From a virus, in the IMG/VR virus record IMGVR_UViG_3300037847_002848, positions 1 through 34,065 of that record: 34,065 nt of DNA. One strand, 5' to 3'. Of this stretch, positions 2,627 to 32,808 are shown in pieces. Position 1 is the first letter of the stretch. Each line of letters starts with the position of its first letter. Both the position numbers and the translations under genes were made by a program. The notes below the pieces were generated by a model. It saw nothing but the letters and a program-made list of their open reading frames with translations. It did no database searches and was not told where the DNA came from.

Positions 2627-2655
2627 TTGAAAACTTGCGCCAAAAATGAGACAAT
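2627..2655 (+). promoter_or_regulatory. promoter of the late-operon leader
   Basis: TTGAAA (2627-2632), a 17-base spacer, then GACAAT (2650-2655) preceded by TGA, which fits an extended -10 element. Predicted initiation is near 2661-2662. No gene starts before the strong terminator at 2705-2744, so the direct product would be a short leader or small RNA. Confidence 0.5.
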
Positions 2656-2660
2656 AGGTT

Positions 2661-2744
2661 AGCGGTTTTTTTAGTTTTACCGCGAGAGCTTTTTTCCTCA
2701 GCTCCCCCGTGCGTAGCCCTCCCCTCACGCACGGGGTTCCTTTT
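2661..2744 (+). ncRNA. candidate leader/small RNA upstream of virion operon
   Basis: From the predicted start the sequence can fold into three consecutive stem-loops. The first is GCGGT/ACCGC at about 2662-2683. The second is GAGCT/AGCTC at about 2686-2704. The third is the perfect 10-bp terminator stem at 2705-2736 followed by TTCCTTTT. The RNA would be about 84 nt. The unit has its own promoter and terminator and no reading frame with a ribosome-binding site. It may be a small RNA or an antiterminated leader for the late genes at 2791. This is inferred from sequence only. Confidence 0.4.
2705..2744 (+). terminator. intrinsic terminator before virion operon
   Basis: A perfect 10-bp stem, CCCCGTGCGT (2705-2714) with ACGCACGGGG (2727-2736), has a 12-base loop and is followed by TTCCTTTT. 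The T-rich tail lies on the plus-strand side, so it stops rightward transcription. All genes to its left are on the minus strand. It therefore most likely acts on a transcript starting inside this same intergenic region. Confidence 0.8.
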
Positions 2745-2754
2745 ATGTTAAAAT
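2744..2754 (+). promoter_or_regulatory. extended -10 late promoter / TATGTTAA element
   Basis: TATGTTAAAAT contains TGT followed by TAAAAT, an extended -10 (TGnTATAAT-like) with no convincing -35. It lies immediately after the terminator and about 37 bases before the first late gene, so transcription would begin near 2761. The TATGTTAA core recurs in other intergenic regions of the window. Confidence 0.45.
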
Positions 2755-2790
2755 GCTGTATTATGGGGTAAACTTATTTGGAGGATTATT

Positions 2791-2907
2791 ATGCCTAAAG
2801 TTGGCGGTAAGCACTATTCCTATTCTAAAAAAGGTATGGCAGCGGCAAAGAAAGCTGCTAAGAAAACAGGTAAGAAAATGACCTACAAGAAGAAAGGTAA
2901 AAAGTAA
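2791..2907 (+). CDS. small lysine-rich phage protein, 38 aa
   Basis: A 38-residue protein starting MPKVGGKHYSYSKKGMAAAK, with lysine making up about 40% of its residues and a helical (AAKKAAKK) core. Tiny proteins with this MPKVGGKH start are familiar at the head of structural operons in marine podoviruses; their function is unknown. The charge suggests DNA or RNA binding, possibly in the virion. A GGAGG ribosome-binding site lies at 2780-2785. Its TAA overlaps the next ATG (TAATG at 2907), so this and the next two genes form a tightly coupled trio. Confidence 0.85.
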   Translation: MPKVGGKHYSYSKKGMAAAKKAAKKTGKKMTYKKKGKK

Positions 2908-3077
2908 TGCCTAAAAAGCGCGGCCTCTATGCCAATATCCATGCTAAACGTGAACGTATCAAACGTCAGAAGGCAGCCGGCAAAACACCGGAGAAAATGC
3001 GTAAGAAAGGTGCAAAGGGTGCACCAACTAACAAAGCATTTAAACAAGCCGCCAAAACAGCCAAGAAGAAAAAGTAA
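2907..3077 (+). CDS. small lysine-rich phage protein, 56 aa
   Basis: A 56-residue basic protein, MPKKRGLYANIHAKRERIK then GKTPEKMRKKGAKGAPTNKAF and a Lys-rich tail. The YANIHAKR and KGAPT motifs are characteristic of a conserved family of short proteins in podoviruses, typically placed next to the portal or terminase region. Function is unknown; a charge-neutralising, nucleic-acid-binding virion protein is one possibility. Start and stop overlap both neighbours by one base (TAATG). Confidence 0.85.
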   Translation: MPKKRGLYANIHAKRERIKRQKAAGKTPEKMRKKGAKGAPTNKAFKQAAKTAKKKK

Positions 3078-3328
3078 TGCCATCGAAGCGTAAGAAGGGC
3101 CCCAGTTTATCAGTTGGCCGTGGAGAGAAACTTTCTGTTAAGCGTGGGGGCGGCTTAACAGCTAAGGGGCGTGCCAAATATAATCGGGCTACGGGTTCGA
3201 ACCTTAAAGCGCCGGCTCCAAACCCTAAGACTAAAAAAGATAAAGCTAGAAAGAAAAGTTTTTGTGCGCGCAGCCGTGGCTGGACGGGTGAGCGTGGAAA
3301 AGCTGCTAGACGTAGGTGGAAGTGTTAG
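3077..3328 (+). CDS. conserved basic phage protein (DUF6321-like)
   Basis: An 83-residue, highly basic protein. Residues 25-65 read GGLTAKGRAKYNRATGSNLK and onward to ARKKSFCARSRGW, matching what I recall of the DUF6321 family in podoviruses; the family number is from memory. A single conserved Cys sits in KSFCARS and another at the C-terminus. Together with the two preceding genes it forms a trio of very basic polypeptides leading the virion operon. Its TAG directly abuts the next ATG. Confidence 0.8.
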   Translation: MPSKRKKGPSLSVGRGEKLSVKRGGGLTAKGRAKYNRATGSNLKAPAPNPKTKKDKARKKSFCARSRGWTGERGKAARRRWKC

Positions 3329-19560: not shown

Positions 19561-21450
19561 ATGACATTAGTACCACTTGATATACCATCTGGATTTTACC
19601 GAATAGGCACAGACTACGAGCAATCTGGCAGATGGCGTGAAGGTAGTTTAGTTAGATGGCTCGACGGTTCATTGCGTCCTATTGGCGGTTGGCAAGATAG
19701 AAAGCAAGATTTTGCCTTGCAGCCAATAAGAGGTATGCACGCTTGGGAAGCTCTTAACCAAAGTACATGGTTAGCAGGCGGCTCACATAATTCATTAGTG
19801 GCAATGACAGGTGGTGGATTATGCTACGACATTACACCAGAAAACTTAGCAACTGGACGTATAGATGCGGCTGTAAGCGCAGGCTATGGTAAAGGTGCTT
19901 ACGGTGTTGGTTTTTGGGGTACGCCAAGACAGCAACTTTCTAACGCAATTCCAGATCCTGCTACATTCTGGACTTTAGACAATTTTGGCGAATTAATGGT
20001 TGGTTGCCATTATGATGACGGTAGACTTGTCGAGTGGGATTTAAATATTGTTAGCGGCTCAGAGCTAATAACGAACAACAGCTTTACCACAGGCACAGAT
20101 TGGACGCTAGGCACTGGTTGGGCTATTAACTCTGGGCAAGCAGAGTGGACAGGCACAACGGCTGCAAACCTTGAGCAAGCTATAACAGGCCTAACAAGCG
20201 GTAAAAAATATCACTTTACTATAAATGTCACTGACCCTGATGCAGATAATGATGCAACTACAATACCGTCATTAAAAGTTAAGATTATCGGCACGACAAC
20301 AACGACAGTTTTACTTGATAAGACATTACCCATTGGTAATAGCTTTTTTAGATTTGACACAGATGATACTGGCGTCACAATACAAATTTATCCTGCTACA
20401 AATGCAGAGCAAAATGTTAATGTCACAGAAACATCTCTTAAATTAGCTGTGGTAGCTACACCAATAACAAACGCACCTATTAATAATCTTGGGTTAGTTG
20501 TCACTGAAGAGCGTTTTATCTTTGCGCTAGGAGCTGGAGGCAATAGTCGTAAAGTACAATGGTGCTCGTTTGAAGATAGAAATCTGTGGGCTCCGGCAAG
20601 CACTAACCAAGCTGGGGATACAGAGTTACAAACTTCTGGCCAGATCATGGCCGGCATAAGAACTAGAGGACAAATTTTAATACTTACTGACGTAGATGCC
20701 TTCACAGCGGTATATTCAGGGCCGCCCGAAATTTATCGGTTTACTAGGGTTGGCACATCTTGCGGAACTGTAACCAGCCGTGGAGCTGTAGATACAGATA
20801 AAGGCGTGTTCTTTATTGGCCAAGAAAATTTCTTTTTGTTTAACGGCAACACAGTACAGCCTATTAAATGCGATGTTCACGATTATATTTTTGGTGATAT
20901 TAATACTTCTCAGCAAACTAAGATATGGGCGATGGGCATACCTCAGTATGGCGAAGTCTGGTGGTTTTATCCATCAGCTAACAGCATAGAAATAGATCGT
21001 TATGTGGCTTACGATTACAATGAAAATCACTGGATGATTGGCGAGCTATCAAGAACGTCTGGCGTTCAACGTGGCGTGTTTAGATATCCTATGATGGCTG
21101 ATTGGGATACGACACACGCTAATATAAAAGAGCATGAAGTTGGTTTTAACGTAGATAACGGTGCAATCTTTGCAGAGACAGGTCCTATTAGCATTGGTAA
21201 TGGTGACCAGATAGCTAAGGTAACCTCTGTTATTCCTGACGAAGTTACGCAGGGTGACGTAAATATGACTTTTAAAACACGATTTCACCCTAACGACACA
21301 GAAACATCACACGGGCCCTTTACGCCAGCCAACCCTACAGACGCTAGGTTTAGTGGCAGACAGTTACGCATGAAAGTGCAAGGTGTAAGACCAGCTAATT
21401 GGCGTGTAGGCGTTATGAGATTACAAACAGTAGCCGGAGGTAACAGATAG
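19561..21450 (+). CDS. tail nozzle-like protein with inserted carbohydrate-binding-like domain
   Basis: A 629-residue protein. The start (IPSGFYRIGTDYEQSGRWRE, then GSLVRWLDGSLRPIGGW) is shared by large tail proteins of marine podoviruses. The body has many short W/Y-rich strands like a beta-propeller (FEDRNLWAPASTNQAGDTEL, then GVFFIGQENFFLFNGN), suggesting the tubular tail or nozzle. Residues about 163-297 (20047-20452) break this pattern with a CBM4/9-like jelly roll: SELITNNSFTTGTDWTLGTG, AINSGQAEW, LTSGKKYHFTINVT. That domain may add a glycan-binding site. It starts 2 bases after the collar gene. Confidence 0.7.
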   Translation: MTLVPLDIPSGFYRIGTDYEQSGRWREGSLVRWLDGSLRPIGGWQDRKQDFALQPIRGMHAWEALNQSTWLAGGSHNSLVAMTGGGLCYDITPENLATGRIDAAVSAGYGKGAYGVGFWGTPRQQLSNAIPDPATFWTLDNFGELMVGCHYDDGRLVEWDLNIVSGSELITNNSFTTGTDWTLGTGWAINSGQAEWTGTTAANLEQAITGLTSGKKYHFTINVTDPDADNDATTIPSLKVKIIGTTTTTVLLDKTLPIGNSFFRFDTDDTGVTIQIYPATNAEQNVNVTETSLKLAVVATPITNAPINNLGLVVTEERFIFALGAGGNSRKVQWCSFEDRNLWAPASTNQAGDTELQTSGQIMAGIRTRGQILILTDVDAFTAVYSGPPEIYRFTRVGTSCGTVTSRGAVDTDKGVFFIGQENFFLFNGNTVQPIKCDVHDYIFGDINTSQQTKIWAMGIPQYGEVWWFYPSANSIEIDRYVAYDYNENHWMIGELSRTSGVQRGVFRYPMMADWDTTHANIKEHEVGFNVDNGAIFAETGPISIGNGDQIAKVTSVIPDEVTQGDVNMTFKTRFHPNDTETSHGPFTPANPTDARFSGRQLRMKVQGVRPANWRVGVMRLQTVAGGNR

Positions 21451-26989: not shown

Positions 26990-27018
26990 TTGTGTTTAAA
27001 TGCAAATGTAACTACAAT
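26990..27018 (+). promoter_or_regulatory. promoter of second leader-like unit
   Basis: TTGTGT (26990-26995), exactly 17 bases, then TACAAT (27013-27018). The -10 matches 5/6 and the -35 3/6. Predicted start about 27024-27026. It reads into the hairpin and terminator at 27031-27097. Confidence 0.45.
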
Positions 27019-27023
27019 ATCTT

Positions 27024-27097
27024 GCATACAGTAGAGCTCTCTCCCTGTCTCTACGACACTGCCGAACTGCCCCACCTAAACAGTGGGGCATTTTTTT
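27024..27097 (+). ncRNA. candidate small RNA / antiterminated leader, ~74 nt
   Basis: A short unit with a promoter and a strong terminator but no reading frame. Stem 1 is GTAGAG (27031-27036) with CTCTAC (27049-27054) around a 12-base pyrimidine-rich loop. Stem 2 is the terminator. The loop contains CTCTCTCC (27037-27044), the exact complement of GGAGAGAG. That octamer is the ribosome-binding site of the gene at 27156 (27146-27153) and of the antisense gene at 4592 (4604-4597). The unit lies about 60 bases before the next plus-strand gene. Confidence 0.45.
27068..27097 (+). terminator. intrinsic terminator, perfect stem and T7 tail
   Basis: Stem TGCCCCAC (27068-27075) with GTGGGGCA (27083-27090), 7-base loop, then seven T residues (27091-27097). 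It would end any transcript reading rightward from the virion operon or from the promoter at 26990. Confidence 0.9.
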
Positions 27098-27155
27098 CTT
27101 GTGTTTATTTTAAGCTAACACTAAGTTAACGCTATGAACAAATCAGGAGAGAGAT

Positions 27156-27612: not shown

Positions 27613-27617
27613 TTCGT

Positions 27618-27672
27618 GCGGCAGCGCTTTATGTGTTACAATACACCCAGAGTATTACAACGGCGCTGCCGC
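27618..27672. repeat. perfect 10-bp inverted repeat bracketing a promoter
   Basis: GCGGCAGCGC (27618-27627) and its exact complement GCGCTGCCGC (27663-27672) are separated by 35 bases. The arms are very GC-rich compared with the AT-rich surroundings. Outer bases TTCG and GAA extend the pairing with one bulge. The enclosed sequence holds an extended -10. It could be an operator pair, or an RNA stem if transcribed through. Confidence 0.8.
27634..27642 (+). promoter_or_regulatory. extended -10 promoter inside inverted repeat
   Basis: TGTTACAAT fits an extended -10 (TGn then TACAAT, 5/6). No good -35 is present. Transcription would start near 27649 and serve the small exported-protein gene at 27707. 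The arms of the inverted repeat lie on either side. Confidence 0.45.
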
Positions 27673-27706
27673 GAACTTCTATCTAACAGAAAGATGGGTT
27701 GAAACA

Positions 27707-31579: not shown

Positions 31580-32027
31580 TTGCGGCTACAGGACGGGCGG
31601 CGTTGCCCTGATATCACCCAGTGACAACTGGGCTGAGGTCCACGACTTACCCGTGTACGACGAGGGCGGCGTGGACGTAGCTGCATTAATGGACCTAATT
31701 ACCAGCGGAAACAAAGTCGATCACATTTACGTAGAGCGTCAGCACGCTATGCCTAAGCAGGGCGTCGTATCTACATTTAAAATCGGTTTTGCATTCGGAC
31801 AGATAACAAGCACGTGTGCACTATCTAGATCGCCTTACACAATAATAAGTGCCAACACTTGGAAACGAGCATTAGGCTTGGCAAAAGATAAAGACGCAAG
31901 TAGACGTCTAGCACAGCAGTGGTATCCTGACGTAACGTCAGACTTAAAAAGAAAAAAAGATGAACACAGAGCTGAAGCTCTACTCATTGCACATTATGGG
32001 AGAAAACAACATGAGTATAAAACTTAA
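31563..32027 (+). CDS. RuvC-like Holliday junction resolvase
   Basis: A 154-residue RuvC-type nuclease. IIGIDCGYRTGGVAL carries catalytic D6, IYVERQHAMPKQG carries E58, and KKDEHRAEALLIA near the C-terminus supplies D133 and E138 as the last two acidic residues. NTWKRALGL near 98-106 is also typical. It would resolve branched DNA before packaging or during recombination. ATG 31563 gives the compact core; the longer frame from 31524 adds only a shadow of the previous gene. Its end overlaps the nuclease gene by 17 bases. Confidence 0.85.
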   Translation: MIIGIDCGYRTGGVALISPSDNWAEVHDLPVYDEGGVDVAALMDLITSGNKVDHIYVERQHAMPKQGVVSTFKIGFAFGQITSTCALSRSPYTIISANTWKRALGLAKDKDASRRLAQQWYPDVTSDLKRKKDEHRAEALLIAHYGRKQHEYKT

Positions 32028-32808
32028 CCTCGACAATGAGGAGTATCACCTATCGCCAGCGTTAAGCGCGTCAGGTGCAAAAATTATAGCGCAGAAGTCA
32101 TTAGCGCATTACAAGTATGGCGAATATAAAAGCTCGGCAGCTTTTGATCTTGGCACAGCTACGCATACGTTATGTCTAGAGCCGCACCTATCTAACAAGG
32201 TATGGTGTGGACCTGAGACTAGACGAGGCAAGGCGTGGACTGAGCGTAAAGATGAGGCAGACGCTGCCGGCGCAGTCCTACTGACAGAAGCAGAATACAA
32301 AATTGCACACGACATGGCTAAGTCTGTGTGGGCAAACGAGGAAGCTGCTAAACTTCTTACCGGCGACATTGTCATAGAGCCCAGCGTGTTTGTAAAAGAT
32401 AACGTCAGGAATGCTGACCTACGATGTAGGCCGGACGCATGGCGGAAAGATATTGCCGCCATAATAGATTTAAAGACAACGATAGATCCGTCGCCTGCCG
32501 GCTTTGCGTCGCAGGCTGGCAAGTTAGGCTATCATATACAAGACCAGTTCTACCGTATGTGTATGGCACTAGAAGGTCACGAGGTAGACCGGTTTGTATT
32601 TATCGCTGTAGGAAAAGACGCGCCTTACACTGTGGGCGTCTACGAGCTCGACGAGCGGTCACTGCAAGAGGGCAGGGCAGCCGTTGACTATGCGCTGGAT
32701 AAATTTGTTTCAGCGCAAAAGAGCGGTGTGTGGGGGTATGATTATGGAGAGTTGCAAACAATCCAAATACCGCCGTACACTTTTAAATTCACTAATGAGC
32801 AAACGTAG
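32011..32808 (+). CDS. RecE-like PD-(D/E)XK exonuclease
   Basis: A 265-residue nuclease. LSASGAKIIAQKSLAHYKYG is the characteristic N-terminus, with FDLGTATHTLCLEP (motif I His). RCRPDAWRKDIAAIIDLKTT holds the PD...DLK active site (D of RPDAW, D and K of IDLKT), and YHIQDQFYR supplies the downstream Gln/Tyr motif. This is the exodeoxyribonuclease VIII-like family that resects 5' ends for single-strand annealing. ATG 32011 is preceded by GGGAGA. The adjacent SSB-like and RuvC-like genes form a recombination set with it. Confidence 0.85.
   Translation: MSIKLNLDNEEYHLSPALSASGAKIIAQKSLAHYKYGEYKSSAAFDLGTATHTLCLEPHLSNKVWCGPETRRGKAWTERKDEADAAGAVLLTEAEYKIAHDMAKSVWANEEAAKLLTGDIVIEPSVFVKDNVRNADLRCRPDAWRKDIAAIIDLKTTIDPSPAGFASQAGKLGYHIQDQFYRMCMALEGHEVDRFVFIAVGKDAPYTVGVYELDERSLQEGRAAVDYALDKFVSAQKSGVWGYDYGELQTIQIPPYTFKFTNEQT

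Follow-up and report, generated by a model that had tools for sequence, protein, structure and literature searches.

Why should a promoter that leads straight into a terminator lie directly ahead of the virion genes of a phage? The question is raised by a short region of the IMG/VR virus record IMGVR_UViG_3300037847_002848, which was analysed over its whole length of 34,065 bases (the window). The virion genes, encoding portal, scaffold, major capsid and tail proteins, are located on the plus strand from 5757 onward. It had originally been predicted that everything to the left of the unit is encoded on the minus strand, and this holds for the assigned genes, which extend to 2579 and of which the nearest encodes an HNH endonuclease; the plus-strand ORFs left of 2579 are short and overlap minus-strand genes. 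A unit of promoter-like sequences and hairpins, here called the leader, takes up the space between the HNH gene and the small basic ORFs with which the virion operon begins (Table 1).

Table 1 Features of the leader and of the second unit of the window
Feature	Position	Strand	Basis
P1, -35 TTGAAA	2627..2632	+	Sequence; comparison across lineages
P1, extended -10 TGA-GACAAT	2647..2655	+	Sequence; comparison across lineages
RNA1, predicted structured RNA of ~84 nt	2661..2744	+	Fold, covariation; covariance model match 2657-2744
HP1, stem GCGGT 2662-2666 / ACCGC 2679-2683	2662..2683	+	Pairing, covariation
HP2, stem GAGCT 2686-2690 / AGCTC 2700-2704	2686..2704	+	Pairing; abuts HP3
HP3, terminator-like, stem CCCCGTGCGT 2705-2714 / ACGCACGGGG 2727-2736	2705..2736	+	Pairing, covariation
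U-tract TTCCTTTT	2737..2744	+	Start coincides with P2 -35 slot
P2, conserved box CTGTATTATG (-10 TATTAT 2759-2764)	2756..2765	+	Sequence; 20 lineage representatives
Shine-Dalgarno GGAGG of first virion-operon ORF	2780..2784	+	Sequence
First operon ORF, 38-aa basic protein, phrog_33179 (unknown function)	2791..2907	+	PHROGs
RNA2, unit of promoter, hairpin (loop motif CUCUCUCCCUG) and terminator, ahead of next small ORF	27022..27097	+	Fold, relatives

The virion operon begins with three very small lysine/arginine-rich ORFs of 38, 56, and 83 amino acids (2791-3328). Similar small basic ORFs lie between the scaffold and capsid genes of the pelagiphages Eistla and HTVC031P. The nearest annotated phages, including Sinorhizobium phiM5 and Pelagibacter HTVC106P, are distant, with portal identities below 60 %. 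Several relatives carry an ExoVIII-like gene (31960-32808 in the window) on the same strand as the leader and approximately 8-11 kb upstream of it, which suggests a gene order of replication genes, minus-strand block, leader, and virion operon.

The original prediction consisted of a plus-strand promoter, TTGAAA-17-TGA-GACAAT, followed by two smaller stem-loops and a terminator with a perfect 10-bp stem, and each of these elements is present. P1 (2627-2655) has a spacer of 17 nt, a TG at 2647-2648 and the -10 sequence GACAAT at 2650-2655, from which a transcription start near 2661 is predicted. The stems of HP1 and HP2 measure 5-7 bp, while HP3 has a loop of 12 nt on its perfect 10-bp stem and is followed by the tail TTCCTTTT. 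No unpaired base separates HP2 from HP3: HP2 ends with the first of five conserved C's and HP3 begins with the remaining four, so that the two helices abut. An automatic terminator scan did not pick up HP3 because the loop exceeds the 8-nt limit of that scan. Folding of 2661-2750 gave a z of -4.9 against dinucleotide shuffles, a value equalled by none of 200 shuffles, and HP3 by itself reached -5.4; the opposite strand of the wider stretch 2600-2790, used as a control, was not unusual (z = -0.45). A leader peptide was considered and rejected, as 2661-2737 is devoid of ATG and TTG and contains only a GTG, at 2709, that lacks a Shine-Dalgarno sequence. Ribosome-mediated attenuation is therefore unlikely.

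The leader was first seen in diverged phages in a blastn comparison with portal-anchored relatives. A scan pattern built from it, CCCCCG...CGGGGTT...TGTATTAT, matched 109 IMG/VR stretches exactly, and all of these except L187 carry the leader unit. Wherever leader and portal gene could both be located on a contig, the leader precedes the portal gene by 1.5-4.3 kb, and the intervening genes differ. Its apparent absence from L030 was discounted, as this contig begins inside the block of genes between leader and portal. The covariance model R1, also built from the leader, matched 31 and 82 times in the loci that were fetched, and each of 14 larger records contained a single match. The R1 match in record G005 is the counterpart of RNA2, the second unit of Table 1; the leader of G005 is a diverged form missed by R1.

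The leader unit was found in virus contigs only. Scanning of 84,980 cellular species genomes (257 Gb) yielded 17 pattern matches, all of them unrelated chance hits, and R1 matched once in 190 genomes of the class of a roseobacter (G019), apparently within a coding frame that was judged by eye to be that of a Mu-like transposase. Six isolate phages among the best portal relatives (less than 60 % identical) gave no R1 match. Rfam 15 contained no match to RNA1 at either gathering or relaxed thresholds when the window and 13 relatives were searched. Little is known about the small RNAs that marine phages make; RNA1, predicted to be one of them, is widespread, has a structure supported by covariation and is absent from Rfam 15.

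Covariation was measured in a MAFFT alignment of 23 sequences, which was not fitted to the structure and for which sequences that aligned well in MAFFT had been selected. In this alignment, 95.7 % of the cells were paired, 7 of the 20 pairs had changed on both sides, and the covariation score was 0.197 against 0.119 ± 0.009 for shuffles, none of 500 being as good. Sliding the partner by one to three columns made the signal collapse to at most 0.05, and a model-fitted alignment with 50 distinct rows agreed on the covariation. HP1 (96-97 % of cells paired, three to four pairs with a change on both sides) and HP3 (99 % paired, three such pairs) are well supported. HP2 is the weakest helix, with 85-87 % of cells paired, mostly one-sided changes and some misalignment. 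The original prediction had been made to depend on conservation and covariation of the stems in relatives, and the stems are both conserved and covarying. We are highly confident that RNA1 is a real, conserved, structured phage RNA.

The loops carry a motif of their own. CUCCC occurs in the HP1 loops of 10 of the 20 lineage representatives and in the HP3 loops of 16, whereas shuffling the letters within these loops gives an expectation of 2.3 and 2.0, respectively; it is present in none of the 20 HP2 loops. The letters that flank CUCCC in the HP1 and HP3 loops vary. CCUCC is the core of the anti-Shine-Dalgarno sequence, which ribosomes use for recognising Shine-Dalgarno sites. In the window phage, the motif is part of the HP3 loop, AGCCCUCCCCUC, as CCUCCCC, and UCCUC is located on the loop side of HP2; the HP1 loop is U-rich and lacks CUCC. 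The HP1 loop of L008 is nearly absent. Retention of the motif on unlike stems was seen in L083, with UUUUCCUCCCUGU and CCCUCCCA in its two loops, and in the L071 group, which has CUCC in a loop and ACCUCCCUCAA, noted also as ACCUCCCU, in the linker. In the diverged RNA of L083 (L083:2407-2480), whose stems are different and whose two loops each contain CCUCCC, the P2 flank differs as well.

The same loops are approximately 74-82 % pyrimidine, and G accounts for only 6 % of the HP1 loops. Such C/U-rich loops could instead bind a host or phage protein of the cold-shock, ribosomal or chaperone type, the RNA acting as a sponge or a binding site. The shuffled loops, however, keep their pyrimidine content and lose CUCCC, so that it is the order of the letters that counts, in keeping with base pairing. 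The observation could also fit a protein with sequence specificity, and we consider protein binding to be an improbable function of RNA1.

By itself, P1 is an unremarkable match (9 of 12), the window containing 10 promoter-like sites where 6.1 are expected, so that its support is comparative. P1-like sequences directly 5' of HP1 have a mean score of 5.9 in the 20 lineage representatives against 2.6 ± 0.5 in shuffles. Most representatives have TG-n and then a -10-like hexamer just 5' of HP1, and TTGAAA or TTGCGA at a 17-nt spacing was found in 8 of the 20 with the scorer used.

A second promoter had been predicted to follow the terminator immediately. A promoter-like box does exist there, at a different position: the conserved box is CTGTATTATG, six bases past a TAAAAT that is not conserved. 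It has a single exact copy in the window; TATTAT was found in all 20 lineage representatives and a TG ahead of it in 19. This box, TGTATTAT, hardly varies and is 22-25 nt away from the last stem base of HP3; as it was part of the scan pattern, its presence in the loci so recovered is partly built in, and portal-anchored loci carry it too. The distance from stem to TATTAT is 22 in 117 of 151 leader matches, and the value of 7 in 18 rows is an artefact of an inner GGGTT. As a consequence of the near-fixed spacing, the -35 slot of P2 falls in the first bases of the terminator tail. Such an overlap is a compact regulatory layout, present at RNA1 and possibly also at RNA2. As P2 is conserved at a near-fixed distance past the stem, expression of the operon need not rely on terminator read-through. 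The tail after HP3 is U-rich in 13 of the 20 lineages, and that of the window phage is reasonable for a terminator. In the other seven the tail is weak, as in TTACACTG and TTCCGTAG, so that termination at HP3 may be partial or absent in these lineages, where the operon mRNA may carry the RNA as its 5' leader. P2 was also considered as a promoter of the T7 type, which would be repeated along the genome and require a phage single-subunit RNA polymerase; PF00940 gave no match in 11 records, but neither did the control, so this silence is uninformative.

Natural deletions of RNA1 were found in four contigs (L073, L282, L285, and L289). P1, the hairpins and the HP3 stem are gone, P2 and the operon start are kept, and an upstream TTGTTA-16-TATAAT is joined directly to the terminator tail. 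RNA1 is thus dispensable in that clade. Since this upstream promoter-like box, which could replace P1, is retained, the deletions are no proof of an operon driven by P2 alone. That four phages manage without RNA1 would agree with HP3 being an insulating terminator with an incidental promoter upstream and with functionless HP1 and HP2. An insulator has no need of the conserved P1, though, and HP1 covaries on both sides of its stem and has an enriched loop motif, which makes this the least credible of the explanations, and a very improbable one.

The same observations bear on the parallels drawn in the original prediction with λ pR'/tR' and with the put leader of HK022. In an antitermination leader, P1 would correspond to pR' and HP3 to tR', and either a Q-like protein or a put-like HP1-HP2 would allow passage into the operon. 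The gross order of promoter, short leader, terminator and late operon fits, and two hairpins at the extreme 5' end are reminiscent of putL (PMC9378689). The λ parallel nevertheless finds no support: the promoter-like P2 follows the terminator in 20 of 20 representatives and is kept without RNA1 in the four deletion contigs, which also have the upstream promoter-like box. Nor did a PHROGs scan of window proteins, which covered part of the ORFs of a record that may be incomplete, reveal a Q-type antiterminator. The put parallel is not supported either, given the short stems of HP1 and HP2, where those of putRNA are long, the loops with their enriched motif and the terminator that follows HP2 without a gap. 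Antitermination is therefore given little credence here.

Already listed in the original prediction as an alternative, a phage small RNA of ~84 nt has become the best reading. We propose, with somewhat better than even confidence and by analogy with NfeR1 and the cuckoo RNAs, that the leader encodes a phage small RNA of about 85 nt that blocks ribosome-binding sites, and that P2 is the operon promoter. P1 would transcribe RNA1 as a discrete non-coding RNA of ~84 nt with HP1 at its 5' end, with HP3 serving as the intrinsic terminator at its 3' end. CUCCC/CCUCCC, the sequence with which ribosomes themselves recognise Shine-Dalgarno sites, would be exposed in the loops of HP1 and HP3, and RNA1 would pair in trans with GGAG(G) sites in mRNAs of the host, the phage or both, lowering their translation during infection. 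The virion operon would be driven separately by P2, provided that P2 is active. Action of RNA1 on ribosome-binding sites, as read from its sequence, is a claim that we hold with moderate confidence. The recurrence of the unit in phage contigs, its covariation, the CUCCC enrichment of the loops, the P1-like sequences 5' of HP1, preservation of the motif on unlike stems, the occurrence of P2 without RNA1 in four contigs and the sharing of the motif by RNA2 were counted in favour of the small RNA. Counted against it were the constant place before the operon, which a trans-acting RNA does not need, the weak tails in 7 of 20 lineages, the HP1 loops of the window phage and of L008, the upstream box in the deletion contigs that could stand in for P1, and the possibility that the pyrimidine loops bind protein.

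Pairing of the RNA1 loops with the ribosome site of the adjacent gene was compared for cognate and swapped combinations. The cognate pairs were no better than the swapped ones (p = 0.49 and 0.93), and specific pairing of the RNA1 loops with the first virion gene was rejected. This lack of a match to the adjacent gene favours generic targets or targets in trans.

A different result was obtained with RNA2, located after the virion genes at ~27.02-27.10 kb. This unit, which folds with a z of -3.95, comprises a -10-like TACAAT, a CUCUCUCCCUG-containing hairpin and a strong terminator. Its counterparts in relatives, which precede the following gene, differ in sequence and contain a CUCCC-type motif. 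Pairing between the RNA2 loop and the ribosome site of the small ORF that follows amounts to -15.3 kcal/mol, the best among the window sites tested. In eight phages, some of them close relatives and with hand-picked segments, cognate pairing gave -15.4 and swapped pairing -11.9 (p = 0.001), the cognate site ranking first in two of the eight. RNA2 and its pairing with the neighbouring gene are regarded as a lead.

The TTG that closes the U-tract of RNA2 (26990-27100) may be the -35 sequence of the next operon. The RNA2 counterpart of G005 (20572-20643 on the minus strand; in L330) matches the RNA1 covariance model with an E value of 5.5e-5 and consists of a GAGCC/GGCUC hairpin and CCCCGAG...CUCGGGG with the loop UUCCUCCCAAUU. 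As R1 also recognises this counterpart, RNA1 and RNA2 may share an origin. In the window, at 27616-27676, a long inverted repeat, GCGGCAGCGC ... GCGCTGCCGC, surrounds the promoter-like TTATGTGTTACAATACACC; it is possibly an operator or an RNA.

The RNA2 result (n = 8) indicates that pairing with an adjacent gene may occur in cis, and it can be joined to the constant place of the leader ahead of the operon in more than 100 contigs and to the weak U-tract of seven lineages. All three would suit a cis-acting leader, in which transcripts from P1 partly pass HP3, the hairpins tune translation or stability, P2 produces a leaderless mRNA and the choice of promoter acts as a switch. On the other hand, the RNA1 loops do not prefer their cognate gene, most lineages, the window phage included, have a reasonable terminator tail, and P2 would bypass the leader. 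A leader acting in cis is unlikely in our judgement, and the small RNA acting on ribosome-binding sites is retained as the preferred reading.

A wider proposal, which we put forward as a tentative and rather doubtful one, is that marine phages encode RNA1 as a general damper of Shine-Dalgarno-dependent translation and RNA2 as an RNA tuned to its neighbour gene, the two flanking the virion module and both imitating the sequence by which the ribosome recognises mRNA. If true, such a pair would, to our knowledge, be the first phage RNA family of that type to be described. The testable prediction is one of competition between phage and ribosomes for Shine-Dalgarno sites, by means of exposed anti-Shine-Dalgarno loops.

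Among known systems, the pR'-tR' leader/6S RNA of λ resembles RNA1 as predicted in being made from a late-region promoter and ending at a nearby terminator. The late operon of λ depends on Q-mediated read-through. In the unit described here, by contrast, a conserved promoter-like P2 follows the terminator. In the putRNA of HK022, too, a phage transcript has a pair of hairpins at its 5' end: the RNA is ~70 nt long, forms two long stem-loops, binds RNA polymerase and suppresses termination (PMC9378689). HP1 and HP2 would also lie at or near the 5' end, given the predicted start. Compared by description, the long put stems that contact the β' zinc-binding domain differ from the 5-7 bp stems of RNA1 (PMC9378689).

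Other short phage-encoded RNAs are c4 of P1/P7, sar of P22 and OOP of λ. The c4 RNA pairs around a ribosome-binding site, probably via its loops (PMC12197685). These three RNAs have specific targets in temperate immunity or lysogeny genes, whereas RNA1 has a generic motif and is located before virion genes. Our literature searches, some of which were narrow and hence constitute weak evidence, yielded no phage anti-Shine-Dalgarno RNAs. RNA1 is probably, judging from its sequence, a new phage-made regulator of translation that lacks a match in the RNA-family library.

In bacteria, the CcsR RNAs of Rhodobacter sphaeroides carry an anti-Shine-Dalgarno loop motif. They are alphaproteobacterial cuckoo sRNAs encoded at the CIN1 locus and share this motif with RNA1. 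CcsR is processed by RNase E from the ccaF1 operon transcript and is linked to a DUF1127 protein (PMC10253847), whereas RNA1 has a predicted promoter of its own and no DUF1127 gene was recognised nearby.

The closest likeness in layout is to NfeR1/αr14 (SmelA075; cuckoo family) of alphaproteobacteria. Like the predicted RNA1, these RNAs have three successive hairpins with anti-Shine-Dalgarno sequences in unpaired loops, divergent stems and their own σ70-type promoter (PMC10746234; PMC3927594). The three (or four) consecutive hairpins of the αr14/cuckoo family are thus present in RNA1. Each hairpin of NfeR1/αr14 displays the identical, ultraconserved CCUCCUCCC on differing stems (PMC10746234; PMC3927594), while RNA1 has CUCCC/CCUCCC in HP1 and HP3, never in HP2, and some lineages lack it. 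αr14 RNAs are encoded by alphaproteobacterial genomes; RNA1 is phage-borne, always precedes the virion operon and has a terminator tail that overlaps the -35 slot of another promoter. As it does not carry CCUCCUCCC in all its loops and is phage-borne, RNA1 is not classed as a member of the αr14/cuckoo family, and the likeness is one of layout rather than of demonstrated sequence homology. By analogy with NfeR1/αr14, RNA1 probably resembles these RNAs in its action.
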